From the NCBI GenBank assembly GCA_027451905.1, contig DAIDHV010000003.1, positions 124,001 through 188,000 of the forward strand: a DNA stretch of 64,000 nt, read 5' to 3'. This DNA comes from Armatimonadota bacterium. Lineage in GTDB: Bacteria; Armatimonadota; Fimbriimonadia; Fimbriimonadales; Fimbriimonadaceae. A program made the position numbers and the translations under genes. This document shows positions 38,955-46,416 of the stretch, in pieces (positions within the stretch are counted from its first letter, which is position 1; each line of letters begins with the position of its first letter). Below the pieces are notes generated by a model, which ran no database searches, was not told the origin of the DNA, and was given only the letters and a program-made list of their open reading frames with translations.

Positions 38955-40925
38955 TTAGGCTACCTTTCCGTCGTCGCTATATTTTCGGCGATCAAAGATA
39001 AGGTCACTGGCAAGCTGCCATGCTTTGGCTGGTATTTTGTTTTCTGGTGCAATTTTACTTACGTGAACAATGGCAGAGGTCAGCCCATATTCCACTGCAT
39101 AGTGGAGCATTGCCGAGTTGAGAACTTGACGAATAGCAGGTTTAAGGCCAAAGCTAATGTTGGATACGCCTAAGATGGTGTTCACGGTTGGATGCTGCCT
39201 TTTTACTTCTCGAATGGCTTCTAAAGTATGGAAACCGGAGTTTCGGAACTCTTCATCTCCGCTTCCCAGCGTAAAAGTAAGGCAGTCAATAAAAACGTCA
39301 TGTTCGGCTAAACCATAGTCACGAGTCAGGGCAAGAAGCCGATTGGCAATTGCAACTTTGTCTTCAACTGTTTTAGCCATTCCTTTTTCATCAATGGTCA
39401 GGGCAACCACGGCGGCTCCGTATCTTTTTGCGAAAGAGAGAACCTGATGGGCCCGCTTGCCTCCATCTTCAAAATTGATGGAGTTGATCACGGGTTTGCC
39501 GGCTACGCACTGAAGGGCCCGTTCTATGACCGGTGGCTCGGTGGAGTCGATCATGATGGGAATTGTCATGGACTTGTTGAGTTTCACAAGCAGGGTTTCC
39601 ATGTCCTTCACTTCATTCCTGCCTACATAGGCGGTGCAAACGTCAAGCACGTGGCTTCCTTCTGCCTCAACTTCCTGAGCGAGCTCAGTTAAACCGTCCC
39701 AATTTTCCGCCGAGAGCATGTCTCGAAAGGCCTTGGAGCCATTGGCGTTGGTGCGCTCTCCAATATAGAGAAGAGAGTTGTCCTGCAGGTACGGCTGATG
39801 CTGATACAAGGAGCTCAGCCCAATAAGTTTATAGGCGCCATCTTGATCGGGCCCTAAATTTCTAAAGTCCAGTGATGGAAATAGAGTCTTGCAATTTTGC
39901 CAATGGCAGTTGGCAGATGAGGCAAGTTGCTCGACTGCTTTCGTGACCATCTCAATATGGGCGGGAGTGGTTCCGCAGCAGCCACCAATCAAGCATGCAC
40001 CGTAATCAGAAACAAATTTGGTATGGGCTTCTGCCAATTCAACAGGGGTTAGCTTATAAACTGCAGCCCCTTTTTCCATGACCGGTAGCCCCGCATTTGG
40101 CTGCACTAAAATCGGCCGCGTGGAATTTTGGGATAAAAACCTCACGTGGGGTGCCATTTCGGTCGGACCGGTAGCGCAGTTAATCCCAATTGCCGAAACT
40201 TCTGGAAACATTTCCAACATCGTGAGGGCAGCAGCTAAATCCGAGCCCAAAAGCATGGTTCCTGTCTGCTCCATCGTCACGGAAACAAACAGAGGGACTT
40301 TGCTTCCAAACTCTGCCATGGCGTCAATTGCCGCAATCACGGCCGCCTTAATCATTAAGAGGTCTTGAAGGGTTTCAAGGAGGAGGGCATCACAGCCGCC
40401 TCGAAGCAAACCTAAAAATCCCTCCTTGTAAGTTGATTCTATCGTGCTCCAATCGGTCTGGCTCAAACTAAGAAGCTTTGTGCCAGGACCCAATCCTCCA
40501 ACCACAAACCTTTGTTTAGGATTGCTAAATTCAGATTCTGCAGCCCTTCTTGCAATCCTTGCTCCCTCGTAACAAATGGGATAAACCAGATCGGCGATGC
40601 CATATTCAGCTAAGACTATAGAGGAGGCTCCGAAGGTGTTTGTGGTTACAAGATCTGAACCGGCTTCGAAGTAGCTTTTGTGGATCTTCTCGATGACCTC
40701 GGGAGATGTCAGATTCAGGGCGTCGTTGCAGCCTTCCACCTGTTCTGGTGTAAGAGAGGGGGTGGGAATGGATGCCCCGGTTCTCTGGCCAAAGCTATCA
40801 AAATCAAACCGAGAGAGATCAAATGCAGCCGCAGTTAGATTAGCAGATTGGATTTGGGTCCCCATTGCTCCGTCAAAGATAAGGGTTTTTGTTCCAATGA
40901 ACTCCCATAAATCTGCCATTTTCAT
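38955..40925 (-). CDS. metH: Methionine synthase MetH, N-terminal half only (Hcy and folate domains)
   Basis: Cobalamin-dependent methionine synthase lacking its C-terminal half, 656 residues from ATG 40925; ATG 40961 adds 12 residues. The homocysteine-binding domain (1-330) has IFDGAMGTQIQ, VTTNTFGA and zinc ligands in GINCATG and IGGCCGTTP. The pterin-binding domain (380-650) has IGERTNANGSKAF and NSINFEDGGKRA. The protein stops at DRRKYSDDGKVA, just where the cobalamin cap would begin. The B12-binding and SAM-reactivation modules are absent and must come from elsewhere if the enzyme works. A structured leader lies upstream. Confidence 0.9.
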   Translation of the reverse strand: MKMADLWEFIGTKTLIFDGAMGTQIQSANLTAAAFDLSRFDFDSFGQRTGASIPTPSLTPEQVEGCNDALNLTSPEVIEKIHKSYFEAGSDLVTTNTFGASSIVLAEYGIADLVYPICYEGARIARRAAESEFSNPKQRFVVGGLGPGTKLLSLSQTDWSTIESTYKEGFLGLLRGGCDALLLETLQDLLMIKAAVIAAIDAMAEFGSKVPLFVSVTMEQTGTMLLGSDLAAALTMLEMFPEVSAIGINCATGPTEMAPHVRFLSQNSTRPILVQPNAGLPVMEKGAAVYKLTPVELAEAHTKFVSDYGACLIGGCCGTTPAHIEMVTKAVEQLASSANCHWQNCKTLFPSLDFRNLGPDQDGAYKLIGLSSLYQHQPYLQDNSLLYIGERTNANGSKAFRDMLSAENWDGLTELAQEVEAEGSHVLDVCTAYVGRNEVKDMETLLVKLNKSMTIPIMIDSTEPPVIERALQCVAGKPVINSINFEDGGKRAHQVLSFAKRYGAAVVALTIDEKGMAKTVEDKVAIANRLLALTRDYGLAEHDVFIDCLTFTLGSGDEEFRNSGFHTLEAIREVKRQHPTVNTILGVSNISFGLKPAIRQVLNSAMLHYAVEYGLTSAIVHVSKIAPENKIPAKAWQLASDLIFDRRKYSDDGKVA

Positions 40926-41003
40926 AAAGGCTACCATTACGGGTGCCAAGAAACTAGCCAATGATTCTAATGCGGCAGTGGCGTAGGTACTTAAGTTTGA
41001 AAA

Positions 41004-41092: not shown

Positions 41093-41148
41093 AATTGGGT
41101 CACTAATGTGCCCAAATAGGTAGACATCTGAAAGTAAATTGCAAACTT

Positions 41149-41195
41149 GTCCACAAAAAGCCAAATTTATCCAAAATTTCCCAATTTTTCCCCGG
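41149..41195 (+). promoter_or_regulatory. MraZ box array (five repeats, 10-bp period)
   Basis: CCA occurs exactly at 41151, 41161, 41171 and 41181, and CCC at 41191, each followed by a mostly A/T stretch. On the opposite strand this is GGGGA, TGGGA, TGGAT, TGGCT, TGGAC with 5-nt spacers. E. coli MraZ binds TGGGN direct repeats with 5-nt spacers near the mraZ promoter. A possible -10 (TACAGT, 41205-41210) lies just downstream. Autoregulation of the dcw cluster is inferred. Confidence 0.75.
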
Positions 41196-41296
41196 AAACT
41201 GGTGTACAGTGTTACCAAGGTCATGAAGACCGGTTCGACTCATAAAAATGCAACGGATTTGTGCGGCCATAACGGTCGAGTGAGGCGGATTGCTTT

Positions 41297-41325
41297 GCGG
41301 CGGTGACAGCTACGGTTGCCGCCGC
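41297..41325 (+). promoter_or_regulatory. GC-rich hairpin in the mraZ leader
   Basis: GCGGCGG (41297-41303) pairs with CCGCCGC (41319-41325) around a 15-nt loop, 26 bp before the mraZ ATG. No T-run follows, so it is not a terminator. It could influence initiation at mraZ. Confidence 0.4.
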
Positions 41326-41351
41326 ATCGTAACTTATTTTGATGGTTTGAA

Positions 41352-41861
41352 ATGGCATTACATAGCTCAGGAATTGGTTCATTTCACCTGTCTTACGATG
41401 GCAACCATGAAACCACGATTGACAAGATCAATCGTATCTCCATTCCTAAAAGAATGCGCGATGGCCTCGGAAGTTCCTGTGTTCTTTATTTAAACGAACT
41501 TGATGTCATTTCGATTTATTCGACCCAAAATTGGCTGAGCCGCATCGAAGGGTTGACAAGCCTCGATCGAAATTCAATTGCCTATGGCGATCTGACCCGC
41601 ATGATTTCGGCGATGTCTTTTTCTGATGTTCCCATTGACGGCGGCCGAGTTGTCATTCCGGATTCATTAAAAAAGAGGGCTGGAATCGAATCGAATGTCA
41701 TTATTTGCGGATGTTTTGACCGCTGCGAAATTTGGGCACCAGAAGCCTTTGAAGAGTATCTGAGGGACATTTTTGGTTACAAGGCAGAAAAGCGGGCCAC
41801 TGTCAAGAGGATTTGGGATGAAGTAGATGCCGCGGTCCAAAAACTCAAGGAGGCAGGGTAG
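41352..41861 (+). CDS. mraZ: Transcriptional regulator MraZ
   Basis: Double AbrB-fold (SpoVT/AbrB-like) DNA-binding protein at the head of the dcw cluster, 169 residues against the usual 140-150. About 12 extra residues are at the N-terminus (MALHSSGIGSFH). First repeat TIDKINRISIPKRMRDGL; second repeat VPIDGGRVVIPDSLKKRAG. It is known to form ring oligomers and repress or activate its own promoter. The box array upstream fits this role. A 5-bp gap leads to rsmH. Confidence 0.93.
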   Translation: MALHSSGIGSFHLSYDGNHETTIDKINRISIPKRMRDGLGSSCVLYLNELDVISIYSTQNWLSRIEGLTSLDRNSIAYGDLTRMISAMSFSDVPIDGGRVVIPDSLKKRAGIESNVIICGCFDRCEIWAPEAFEEYLRDIFGYKAEKRATVKRIWDEVDAAVQKLKEAG

Positions 41862-41866
41862 GGATT

Positions 41867-42772
41867 ATGGAATCTGCTGGTTTTCATGTGCCGGTTATGG
41901 TTCGAGAAGTCTTTGAGGCGATGAAGCTTCCCAAGGGTGGCGTCTATGTTGATGGCACCTTGGGACACGGGGGCCACGCCCTTGAAGCGGCCAAGTTTAT
42001 CCAGCCTGGTGGAACCGTTTATGGGTTCGACTGGGACATTAAGATGCTAGAGATCGCTAAAGGGCGCATTTCCGGCATCGACAATGTTCATTGGAACACC
42101 TTCAATATCCCTTTTTTTGATGCCCCCGAGTTGCTTTCAAACCTCAATGTTCGGGCGGATGGAATTTTGCTAGATCTCGGAGTCAATTCGGGCCACTTTG
42201 ATGACCCTTCCCGTGGATTTTCTTTTAAGGAGGGTCCGCTTTCGATGAAGATGAACGAAAGCTCAGGAGAGCCAGCTTCGGCTTTCTTGAACCGTATGAC
42301 ACCTTATGAAATTGAATCTGTTTTGCTGGAATATGGCGATGAGCGATGGGCTAGGGCGATTGCCAAGCAAATCGTGACAAGACGAAAGGAAAAACCGCTA
42401 AGAACAACCACCGATCTGGTTGATTGCGTACTTGCCGCCATCCCCGCCGGAGCCCGAGATAAGAGAATCCATCCTGCAACCCGAACTTTTCAGGCGATCC
42501 GAGTTCTGACAAATTCTGAACTTGATCGTTTAGAGGAAGCGTTTATGGGCTTTGCAGAGATCTTGGCAAAAGGAGGGGTTTTGGTGATTCTTTCTTATCA
42601 CTCCGGTGAAGATAGAATTGCAAAGCAGTTCATCAAAAGGGAGACGAAAAGCAAGGATAGCCATCGGTTTGTCTCTTTGTTCGAGAAACCAATCCAGCCG
42701 TCGGCCCAAGAAATAAGATTTAATCATCGCGCAAGAAGCGCGAGGATGCGAGCGATTCAAAAAGTCGCTTGA
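41867..42772 (+). CDS. rsmH: 16S rRNA (cytosine-1402 N4)-methyltransferase RsmH
   Basis: 301-residue SAM-dependent methyltransferase (MraW). Signature VPVMVREVFEAM at the N-terminus, motif I VDGTLGHGGHALEAA, DGILLDLGVNSGHFDDPSRGFSF, and RIHPATRTFQAIRVLTN near 200. Length is typical. Second gene of the dcw cluster, next to mraZ as in most bacteria. Confidence 0.97.
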   Translation: MESAGFHVPVMVREVFEAMKLPKGGVYVDGTLGHGGHALEAAKFIQPGGTVYGFDWDIKMLEIAKGRISGIDNVHWNTFNIPFFDAPELLSNLNVRADGILLDLGVNSGHFDDPSRGFSFKEGPLSMKMNESSGEPASAFLNRMTPYEIESVLLEYGDERWARAIAKQIVTRRKEKPLRTTTDLVDCVLAAIPAGARDKRIHPATRTFQAIRVLTNSELDRLEEAFMGFAEILAKGGVLVILSYHSGEDRIAKQFIKRETKSKDSHRFVSLFEKPIQPSAQEIRFNHRARSARMRAIQKVA

Positions 42773-42788: not shown

Positions 42789-43181
42789 ATGAGCGCATCA
42801 AAAATATTTAGTCGTCACGGCATCGCCGCAACCCCTTCAAAGCGTTACCGCAGCGGAGTGAGTCTGCCTCAAACAAAGGCGCCTCCTGCCATTGCTGTGC
42901 TTGCGGTTCAGGCTGCGGTTTGTGGTCTTGTCATTGGGTTTAGCTATGTGGGATTTGCTTTAGCTTGGAACATGCAAATGGAGGCTTCAAGGCAGTTGGA
43001 TGCGTCCTACCAGTCCAGAATCAGCGCTGCCGATTCTTCGATTGGGGATCTAAAGCGATCCATTCAAATGTTAGACTCTCGCTATTCGATCGAGCAGTGG
43101 GCTCAGGAAAATGGATATACCCTTGATGGCACGGCAACAGCGGCGACTTTAGACAAGCCTCAAACGTCAGTTTCTCGATGA
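42789..43181 (+). CDS. FtsL-like bitopic division protein
   Basis: 130 residues. A basic cytoplasmic tail (1-30) leads into one TM helix (about 33-58, IAVLAVQAAVCGLVIGFSYVGFAL). A short extracytoplasmic helix follows with heptad character (RISAADSSIGDLKRSIQMLDSRYSIEQWAQENGY), ending with a small disordered tail. FtsL proteins diverge strongly, so the call rests on topology and its place between rsmH and ftsI. The stop overlaps the ftsI start (ATGA). Confidence 0.75.
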   Translation: MSASKIFSRHGIAATPSKRYRSGVSLPQTKAPPAIAVLAVQAAVCGLVIGFSYVGFALAWNMQMEASRQLDASYQSRISAADSSIGDLKRSIQMLDSRYSIEQWAQENGYTLDGTATAATLDKPQTSVSR

Positions 43182-44917
43182 AATTCCGCCGTGGGTCTTG
43201 GCTGTTTTGGACTTTAGGGATTGCTTTTGGAGCAACCTTAATCAGCCAAGCCAATGTGCAGATTTTGGCCAGAAGCCGAGTGCTAGCAGAAGCAAAGGCT
43301 AGCCATCGGTATATCGTCGAGACTCATTCGGTTGCAAGACGGGGAACCATCTGGACCTCGGATCATCGGCCGTTGGCAGAAAACGAAAGTGGTTTTCAGC
43401 TATGCGTTAATTTTTCGGATGCCCCCAATGCCCCGAAAGTACCAAGGAGTCCTGCGTTTTACAGTGATTTAAGCACCGCTTCGGGGATTCCTCTTGCCGA
43501 GATTGAAAGCAGGGCCGATGCTGGTCAGGAAACGTGTTGGGCGCAAGGACTTGGGAGGACTCAAACCCTCAACGTCGAAAGAATTAAGGAGCTTTGGAAG
43601 GCAGATGGAATTGGATTAGGACCCTCCAACCGAAGAATCTATCCCCTTGGCAGTTATGCGGCGGGAATCACCGGTGCATTCCGCCCAGGCCGCCCAACAG
43701 ATGGTTTGGAGGGCGGCTTTGAGCACGACTTAGCAGGGAAAGATGGTTCTGCAAAAGGCTGGATTGATCGAGACGGCTCGTTTTTGCCACTTTGGACGGA
43801 GTGGGTGCATCCTAAAAAGGATGGGGAAGATATCACAACCACCATAGATAGTGTCCTGCAGAACGATGCCGCCCAACAAATCCGTCAGGCAGTTGATAAA
43901 TTTGACGCGGTCCAAGGCTGTGCCATCATCATGGATCCCAGCAACGGCAACATTTTAGCGATGGCAAACTGGCCAAGTTTCGAGCCGTCTCCCAAACCAG
44001 GGGAGATTGCACCCAAGCGACAGTCAGACCTAGATTCGGCTTATATGCTCCACATGGAGCCAGGCTCAATGTTCAAGATTCTAACCCTCTCTTGTGCGCT
44101 TGATTCCAAGGCGATACCGCTGAATTTCTCGATGTACTGCCCGGGAGACAAGATGGTGGCGGGGGTTGCCAGGGTTCGCTGTGCCTTAGAAAATGGGACG
44201 CGGGCTCACGGTCAAACTGATTTGGAACAAGCCATCGCCAAAAGCTGTAACATCAGCGCTGCAACGTGGGCCACTCATATCGGAGACGCCAATTTTATTA
44301 AATTTATAAAAACGACAGGAGTTCTGAATCGCCCTGATTTGGGTCTCCCTGGAGCCACAACCGGAACCATTGACTATGCTGATCCTGCCAAGGTAATTCA
44401 GGCTGCCGATTTAGGATTTGGCCAATCCATTGCCTGCACTCCGATTCAGCTTGCAGCTGCCTTTGCGGCGGTTGCCAATGGAGGTCTTCGCGTTTTTCCA
44501 AGGCTTGTGACTGAGGTTGGAAATCAAAAAATACCGTCGAAGGCACCGGTGCGAATCATAACCCAGTCCACCGCTAGCATCGTCAGAAAGTTCATGGTTT
44601 CTGTGTTAGAAAAACCGTATGGAACTGGGTACAAACTGCGCATTCCGGGATACACAATTGCCGGAAAGACAGGAACGGCTCAAATTGCCAATGGCAAGCT
44701 TGGATACGAAAGCAACTTTCTTGCCTTTTTGCCGGCTGCAAATCCACAGGTCGAGATTTTGGTGATGGTTTATGACCCCAGAAAGAATGGATACTATGGT
44801 GCTCAAGTCGCGGGCCCTGTCTTCCATCAGCTTGCCCTTGATTGCATCCAGAGATTGAATATCGCCCCTGATCAACCCATTGCACCCAGTAAGGCAGCCG
44901 GACCGTCAAATCCATGA
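43178..44917 (+). CDS. ftsI: Peptidoglycan transpeptidase FtsI (class B PBP)
   Basis: Septal D,D-transpeptidase of 579 residues: short cytoplasmic end, TM helix (8-25), PBP dimerisation domain with ARRGTIWTSDHRPLAEN, then the transpeptidase domain. Active-site motifs are SMFK (S297), SCN in KSCNISAATW, and KTGTA (K497). The C-terminus lacks a PASTA domain. It overlaps both neighbours by 4 bp. Confidence 0.95.
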   Translation: MKFRRGSWLFWTLGIAFGATLISQANVQILARSRVLAEAKASHRYIVETHSVARRGTIWTSDHRPLAENESGFQLCVNFSDAPNAPKVPRSPAFYSDLSTASGIPLAEIESRADAGQETCWAQGLGRTQTLNVERIKELWKADGIGLGPSNRRIYPLGSYAAGITGAFRPGRPTDGLEGGFEHDLAGKDGSAKGWIDRDGSFLPLWTEWVHPKKDGEDITTTIDSVLQNDAAQQIRQAVDKFDAVQGCAIIMDPSNGNILAMANWPSFEPSPKPGEIAPKRQSDLDSAYMLHMEPGSMFKILTLSCALDSKAIPLNFSMYCPGDKMVAGVARVRCALENGTRAHGQTDLEQAIAKSCNISAATWATHIGDANFIKFIKTTGVLNRPDLGLPGATTGTIDYADPAKVIQAADLGFGQSIACTPIQLAAAFAAVANGGLRVFPRLVTEVGNQKIPSKAPVRIITQSTASIVRKFMVSVLEKPYGTGYKLRIPGYTIAGKTGTAQIANGKLGYESNFLAFLPAANPQVEILVMVYDPRKNGYYGAQVAGPVFHQLALDCIQRLNIAPDQPIAPSKAAGPSNP

Positions 44918-46416
44918 TGCTTTCAGAGTGGATTCAGCTCAGTGGGGCTCCCATCAAGTCTCTTGTCGGGGATTCACCGATCAGTGGAATTCAATCAGAC
45001 AGCAGGAAAGTCAAACAGGGCGATCTCTTTGTTTCGATGCCAAGCCACCGAGGAGATGCGGCAGAATACATCTCAAAAGCGATTGCAGCCGGGGCTGCCG
45101 CCGTGCTTGTAGCCGGCGACTCTGCCCCAAAAGCTGGTTATTCTGCCAACGTTGCAGTTGCTGAAACCGGGCCCGGATTTTTAGAACTCTCCGAAGCAGC
45201 TTGGCGACTGGCTCATGCCATCTTGGATTATCCATCAAGAGCGATGACCGTGATCGGGGTCACTGGCACAAATGGCAAGACCACCACTGCGTGGATCATC
45301 AGGCAGCTGCTGGAGCAACTCTTGGGTCCTTGCGATTACCTTGGCACGTTAGGGTTTGAATGTGAAGACGGCTTGGTAGAGGTTGGCAACACAACTCCTT
45401 TTGCAGTAGATCTTGCCCAGTTTCTTGCCAAATCACGCGATACGGGCAGAAAGGGCTTTTCGATGGAAGTGAGTTCTCATGCTCTTGCCGAGAAAAGATC
45501 GGATGGGGTTGAGTTTGATGCAACCGTCTTCACCAATTTAACCCAGGACCACCTTGATTTTCATGGATCGATGACGGATTATGAATTGGCGAAGTCAAGG
45601 CTCTTTTTTGAGCTTCCAAGCCAGACAAAAAAGTCCTGCACGGCAGCGATCAATAAAGACGATCCCGTCGGGGAAAAGTGGCTCAGGAAGCTTCCTTCTG
45701 CGATCCCCTATTCAGTCTCTAATTCCTCTAGTGGCGGCGTTTATGGCCGACCCAATTTCGTAAGAGCAGACCGCATTGCGATGGACTTTACATACGGAGG
45801 GTCCAGCGTGGAGGCAGAATTTCTGTTAGGCGGTAACTTTAATGTTCAAAACGCTTTGGCTGCCGTCGCGGGTTTGGTGGCGGCTGGCTTTGAGTTTAAG
45901 CAGGTTGTGGAAGCTCTCTCTGCAGTGAGGCCCGTGCCAGGCAGGTTTGAGTCGGTTCCAACCGGAAAGACCTTTAGTGCCATTGTTGACTACGCCCACA
46001 CTCCGGACGCCCTTCAGAAGCTATTAAGCAGCGTCCGAAATCTCCAACCAAGGCGAATTATCACCGTCTTTGGATGTGGAGGAGATCGAGACCGCACCAA
46101 GCGACCCAAAATGGCTTACGCGGCAACATCATTGAGTGACATCACTATTATCACCAGTGATAATCCAAGAACTGAGGATCCTAAAGCCATCTTAAATGAA
46201 GTCGAGACAGGGGTCAATGCCGGAAGCCGTTACCTTAAAATCGTGGATCGAGCGGAGGCTGTCAAAAAGGCCATCATGCTGGCAGAAGAAAGGGACATCG
46301 TTGTGGTTGCTGGCAAGGGGCACGAAAATTATCAAATCATAGGACATGTCAAGCATCCTATGGATGACCGCGCTTTGATTAAAGAAGCCCTAGATCATGT
46401 GGGAGGCTCAGAATGA
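44914..46416 (+). CDS. murE: UDP-MurNAc-tripeptide ligase MurE
   Basis: Adds the third residue to the peptidoglycan precursor; 500 residues. The N-terminal domain contains GIQSDSRKVKQGDLFV. The ATP loop is GVTGTNGKTTT (about 113-123) and DYAHTPDAL is conserved. The motif DNPR (in ITSDNPRTEDP) indicates meso-diaminopimelate as the added residue. Overlaps ftsI and murF by 4 bp each. Confidence 0.96.
   Translation: MMLSEWIQLSGAPIKSLVGDSPISGIQSDSRKVKQGDLFVSMPSHRGDAAEYISKAIAAGAAAVLVAGDSAPKAGYSANVAVAETGPGFLELSEAAWRLAHAILDYPSRAMTVIGVTGTNGKTTTAWIIRQLLEQLLGPCDYLGTLGFECEDGLVEVGNTTPFAVDLAQFLAKSRDTGRKGFSMEVSSHALAEKRSDGVEFDATVFTNLTQDHLDFHGSMTDYELAKSRLFFELPSQTKKSCTAAINKDDPVGEKWLRKLPSAIPYSVSNSSSGGVYGRPNFVRADRIAMDFTYGGSSVEAEFLLGGNFNVQNALAAVAGLVAAGFEFKQVVEALSAVRPVPGRFESVPTGKTFSAIVDYAHTPDALQKLLSSVRNLQPRRIITVFGCGGDRDRTKRPKMAYAATSLSDITIITSDNPRTEDPKAILNEVETGVNAGSRYLKIVDRAEAVKKAIMLAEERDIVVVAGKGHENYQIIGHVKHPMDDRALIKEALDHVGGSE

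Follow-up and report, generated by a model that had tools for sequence, protein, structure and literature searches.

The regulator MraZ is found very widely among bacteria, but the few species in which its binding site has been examined have GTG repeats downstream of the -10 element. In the 64-kb stretch of an Armatimonadota genome analysed here (the window), the intergenic region ahead of mraZ carries five tandem boxes on the strand opposite to the gene. Here we ask whether this array is the operator of MraZ, and whether its orientation and placement are peculiar to this genome.

Five-box array upstream of mraZ

The first-pass annotation of this DNA had described five minus-strand units repeated with an exact 10-bp period ahead of mraZ, and the sequence bears this out. 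The array is intergenic, 157 bp upstream of the mraZ ATG (41352) of an Armatimonadota dcw cluster, and reads on the plus strand, from 41150, TCCACAAAAA GCCAAATTTA TCCAAAATTT CCCAATTTTT CCCC. The features of the promoter region are as follows.

41119..41130, plus strand: GGTAGACATCTG, a copy of a GTAGAC site conserved in relatives, upstream of the array
41150..41194, minus strand: five-box array with an exact 10-bp step in the sequence, proposed MraZ operator; boxes GGGGA (41190-41194), TGGGA (41180-41184), TGGAT (41170-41174), TGGCT (41160-41164), and TGGAC (41150-41154)
41199..41203, plus strand: CTGGT, possible sixth rung in reversed orientation, at -6 relative to the proposed -10 (from position only)
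41205..41210, plus strand: TACAGT, proposed -10 of the mraZ promoter, without a consensus -35 (from similarity to L091, L029, and L002)
41217..41351, plus strand: proposed untranslated dcw leader, which corresponds in degenerate form to the CsrA-type leaders of relatives
Around 41250-41264 (GCAACGGATTTGTGC) and 41297-41325 (GCGGCGG...CCGCCGC), plus strand: hairpins of the leader

The array consists of tandem TGG-cored units of about one helical turn each, as expected of an MraZ operator with its at least three such units (four TGG and one GGG, n = 5), and the spacers between the boxes are nearly pure A/T. GGG is absent from three of the five boxes, which have GG-only cores, and the canonical GTG is found in one of the five units (GTGGAC on the minus strand). 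When both strands of the 64 kb were searched for five KGG ([T/G]GG) cores at any period of 8-13 bp, the array was the single occurrence, and no such array with a period of 9-12 bp appeared in 60 first-order Markov simulations of the window. A pattern search of the whole genome (2.87 Mb) found one other site with five cores at a 10-bp step, a TGGAG simple repeat. We also scored five-box, 10-bp ladders with a box model trained on the promoters of relatives, the window being excluded. The array was the top ladder of the 64 kb on either strand, with a score of 12.7 vs -14.6 for the next best site. A search of the window for three TGGG units with three mismatches allowed gave 63 matches vs 66 expected, a criterion too loose to inform.

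A sigma-70 consensus scan of the mraZ promoter region found no promoter; we therefore infer the -10, and with it the start site, from related genomes: the corresponding sequence is TGTACAGT in L091 as in L029, and L002 has TACAGT. Relative to this putative -10, the rungs of the window are at -55, -45, -35, -25, and -15, with CTGG at -6.

A divergent metH-like gene (38955-40961, minus strand) lies on the other side of the intergenic region. We do not favour the array as an element of this gene, because in L006, L009, and L010, which have the array in the same orientation, inspection by eye found another upstream gene, directed towards mraZ.

mraZ and the dcw cluster

The array is located at the mraZ promoter that heads the dcw cluster mraZ-rsmH-(ftsL)-ftsI-murE. 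The genes of the cluster, all on the plus strand, are as follows.

41352..41861, plus strand: mraZ, 169 aa (Pfam PF02381, E = 6.8e-15; D24/R28 kept)
41867..42772, plus strand: rsmH (mraW) (Pfam PF01795, E = 1.1e-81)
42789..43181, plus strand: small protein of 130 aa at the ftsL position (from position only; a Pfam search gave no match)
43178..44917, plus strand: ftsI-type penicillin-binding protein (Pfam PF00905 and PF03717)
44914..46416, plus strand: murE-type Mur ligase (Pfam Mur ligase domains)

Among named genomes, the closest RsmH relatives were Armatimonadetes/Fimbriimonadaceae MAGs. MraZ of the window has two PF02381 stretches above the Pfam cut-off and is predicted to adopt the MraZ fold (mean pLDDT 85.6); its best PDB matches were all MraZ, including crystal structures and two cryo-EM entries of MraZ on promoter DNA, 9r4j and 9sz7, of which 9sz7 is described as a '4 box promoter'. 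The protein is only ca. 30% identical to homologues within its family, and of the two DXXXR motifs of MraZ the first (D24/R28) is kept and the second is shortened by one residue to D96-G-G-R99 (41637-41648), which was seen in this protein alone among 30 aligned.

The same ladder in related families

To the first-pass annotation, loss of the 10-bp period in orthologous promoters would have spoken against MraZ. In 80 sequences upstream of mraZ, taken from f1 (n = 73), the family of the window genome, and from f5 (n = 7), another family of the same order, with the window excluded, a period of about 10 bp was retained. Spacings between copies of TCCCA on the coding strand, equivalent to TGGGA on the other, peaked at 10-11, 20-22, and 31-32 bp, and almost no others up to 40 bp occurred. 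Among all 256 tetramers, those most often repeated at 10-11 bp were TCCC (33/80 promoters) and CCCA (28/80), vs 0.3 in shuffled sequences, and AAAA ranked third. By this strict criterion a TCCC pair was present in only 33 of the 80 relatives, and TGGG pairs were present in four.

Anchored on the -10, the boxes of the relatives form rungs near +5, -6, -16/-17, -37/-38, and -48, with a step of ca. 10.6 bp, so that the ladder overlies the -35/-10 region from about -48 to +5. Five or more boxes also occur in certain relatives, e.g. L012 and L071. The sequence between the TCCC boxes has an AT content of 80%, vs 53% for the region. Some rungs bear GTGG instead of TCCC, and the two kinds of box share one phase (10.55 bp, R = 0.67; 500 jittered draws gave a mean of 0.23 and at most 0.56).

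The ladders of f1 (e.g. L007, L009, L010, L012, and L071) and f5 share their orientation, placement, and AT-rich spacers with the window array. They differ from it in their step of ca. 10.6 bp and their TGGGA core, whereas the window array has a step of 10.0 bp and three GG-only cores. Judged by these sequences, the window array is the relatives' ladder with a slightly shorter step, its relation to the -10 being uncertain. Since the relatives' step is ca. 10.6 bp, the exact 10.0-bp step appears to be a local variant.

Deviation of three units from GGG had earlier been taken to suggest a changed specificity. This proposal is unproven: the box of relatives is TGGGA and boxes elsewhere in the phylum are GTGGA/GTGGT, so TGGA falls within the known range, although TGGC is atypical. 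The DGGR shortening of the window MraZ would be compatible with altered reading but does not demonstrate it. In L136 (G080), MraZ is without a clear second DXXXR, and CGGGT/CGTGC repeats ca. 10 bp apart were found by eye upstream of mraZ; in this genome the operator has possibly changed along with the protein.

Orientation and placement of MraZ-type boxes

Of 25 promoters from the phylum's other families (L145-L170), 18 had GTGG pairs at 10-11 bp on the coding strand, and in families f2/f3 of the same order they were found in 12 of 12; these boxes are mostly just downstream of the -10. TCCC pairs occurred in one promoter of each set (1/25 and 1/12). The pattern is the reverse in the two families with the ladder, where TCCC pairs were present in 29/73 (f1) and 4/7 (f5) promoters and GTGG pairs in 6/73 and 0/7. 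The arrays of L145-L170 and f2/f3 thus share mraZ, the TGG core, and the 10-11-bp period with the window, but differ in strand and place.

A similar difference was observed with the known operators. In E. coli K-12 (NC_000913), AGTGGG/GTGGGG/AGTGGG is on the coding strand immediately 5' of mraZ. Like the window array, the E. coli operator has TGGG boxes repeated in tandem every 10 bp upstream of an mraZ that heads the dcw cluster; it comprises 3-4 GTGGG boxes on the coding strand and ends just 5' of the ATG, whereas the window array comprises five boxes, mostly without the G of GTG, on the opposite strand and over the putative core promoter. MraZ of B. cenocepacia binds a fragment bearing four repeats with 3-nt spacers, which are located downstream of the -10 and across the start site, and GTG is reported to be conserved in MraZ sites (PMC7761207). 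The mollicute MraZ site is (AAAGTGKN3)3 (PMC5282649). These sites resemble the window array in that repeats of ca. 10 bp follow one another head to tail at the mraZ promoter, but their core is GTG. The window array departs from the canonical placement, which E. coli and B. cenocepacia show, on the coding strand downstream of the -10; it lies on the opposite strand at -55 to -15 relative to the putative -10.

The earlier observations that the array has more boxes than that of E. coli and lies on the strand opposite to mraZ both hold. The second is not peculiar to the window genome, because it is the rule across f1 and f5; as far as the compared promoters tell, the flipped placement is a clade-wide variant and not a quirk of one genome. 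This distribution is most simply explained if, on the way to f1 and f5, whether on one branch or on more, the operator changed strand and came to lie over the core promoter. A whole lineage would then have its operator on the other strand and over the core promoter, while its neighbours keep the usual arrangement. This contrast between lineages could serve as a natural experiment on whether the direction, number, and placement of the boxes matter to DNA reading and repression by a regulator that forms a ring.

MraZ as the probable reader of the array

We consider it very probable (a probability of ca. 0.78) that the array is an autoregulatory operator of MraZ. The array itself is real, and it adjoins the gene of the proposed reader. 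In M. genitalium, MraZ acts as a repressor of its own cluster (PMC8475190), and the same paper cites such autorepression for E. coli. In the proposed mechanism, one MraZ subunit would contact each of the TGG cores, which lie on the strand opposite to mraZ. The helical spacing would bring the cores onto one face of the DNA, so that an MraZ ring, opened or present in more than one copy, could touch several consecutive ones. As the boxes extend over about -55 to -10 relative to the proposed -10, bound MraZ would be expected to occlude RNA polymerase and exclude it together with the sigma factor, and accumulation of MraZ would shut off mraZ-rsmH-ftsL-ftsI-murE.

Two mraZ-less genomes bear on the link between ladder and gene. 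In L133 and L134 (G028 and G093, 1.5-Mb genomes of the same family), rsmH is present without mraZ, and no ladder was found upstream of rsmH. Since G028 and G093 represent one lineage, they lend weak support to this link.

An improbable alternative is that the working element is a series of phased A/T tracts (AAAAA/AAATTT/AAAATTT/AATTTTT, 10 bp) that curve the DNA ahead of the promoter and are simply interrupted by the CC/GG steps. The almost pure A/T spacers of the window, the AT enrichment between the boxes of relatives, and the third rank of AAAA are what this explanation predicts. However, curvature needs no CCC on one strand, yet TCCC pairs far outnumbered TGGG pairs among the 80 promoters; in other families of the phylum the boxes remain periodic, most of the sequences between them not being AT-rich, and no ladder is seen where mraZ is absent. 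The A/T-rich spacers probably bend DNA all the same, and such bending may help MraZ to bind.

Another regulator of the dcw promoter that uses helically spaced TGGGA sites could also own the array, but we regard this as distinctly improbable. What speaks for it is the loss of the G of the GTG core in the clade with TGGGA boxes, where GTGGG can be read in only 14 of 107 boxes. The GTAGAC site, furthermore, suggests that other factors act nearby: GTAGAC/GTCTAC was found in 64/80 mraZ promoters of relatives vs 8.8 in shuffles, often as AGTAGACATA. On the other hand, the TCCC boxes are phased with GTGG boxes, the canonical MraZ type, which suggests that a single protein reads both, and the array adjoins mraZ and is gone in both readable mraZ-less genomes. 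Chance periodicity or an unselected relic would fit the greater degeneracy of the window boxes compared with the relatives' boxes, and the step of 10.0 instead of ca. 10.6 bp, but is hardly credible given the simulated windows, the near-uniqueness of the array genome-wide, and the box model that singles it out.

Leader RNA and CsrA

Between the promoter and mraZ, the leaders of relatives (e.g. L005, L007, L010, L085, and L127) contain a conserved central element, GGGCGGGGTG, and CsrA-type hairpins with CANGGANG in their loops. CANGGANG sites numbered 66 in 81 leaders, vs 3 in equal upstream stretches and 6.6 in shuffles. At least two CA(N)GGA(N)G sites, usually ca. 62 nt apart, were present in 34 leaders, and none were found in the leaders of f2/f3. 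RNAalifold on sequence-aligned leaders recovered only a 4-pair central stem because the hairpins shift register; we therefore tested pairing on sites picked by sequence alone, using arms swapped between leaders as the control (1000 draws). The second and third flanking pairs formed in 86% and 71% of the sites, respectively, vs 44% and 41% with swapped arms (maxima 60% and 59%), and many pair types were involved. An Rfam search gave no match for the leader.

CANGGANG hexaloops have been described as high-affinity targets of CsrA/RsmE (PMC4894983). These results suggest that CsrA may bind the leader of relatives, and in that case cell division would be linked to a global post-transcriptional regulator. 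In the literature joining CsrA and MraZ, titles and abstracts mention nothing on a CsrA-type mraZ leader. The window leader contains no strict CANGGANG site, and its fold has a z-score of -1.66, which is not significant alone.

The two elements together would constitute a two-layer control of the dcw cluster that is not known elsewhere in combination, with a flipped MraZ operator and a leader bound by CsrA at two CANGGANG hairpins ca. 62 nt apart, and would couple cell division and the synthesis of the wall to a flagellar CsrA-FliW circuit. This proposal is tentative, its odds falling a little short of even; the window genome would keep the first layer and have largely lost the second. CsrA is encoded in 41/41 genomes of the order searched. 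In the window genome, csrA (L171, G000:C1:542400-545600) is located downstream of FliW-like and flgL-like genes, which were named by eye, and this neighbourhood suggests the CsrA-FliW flagellar circuit.
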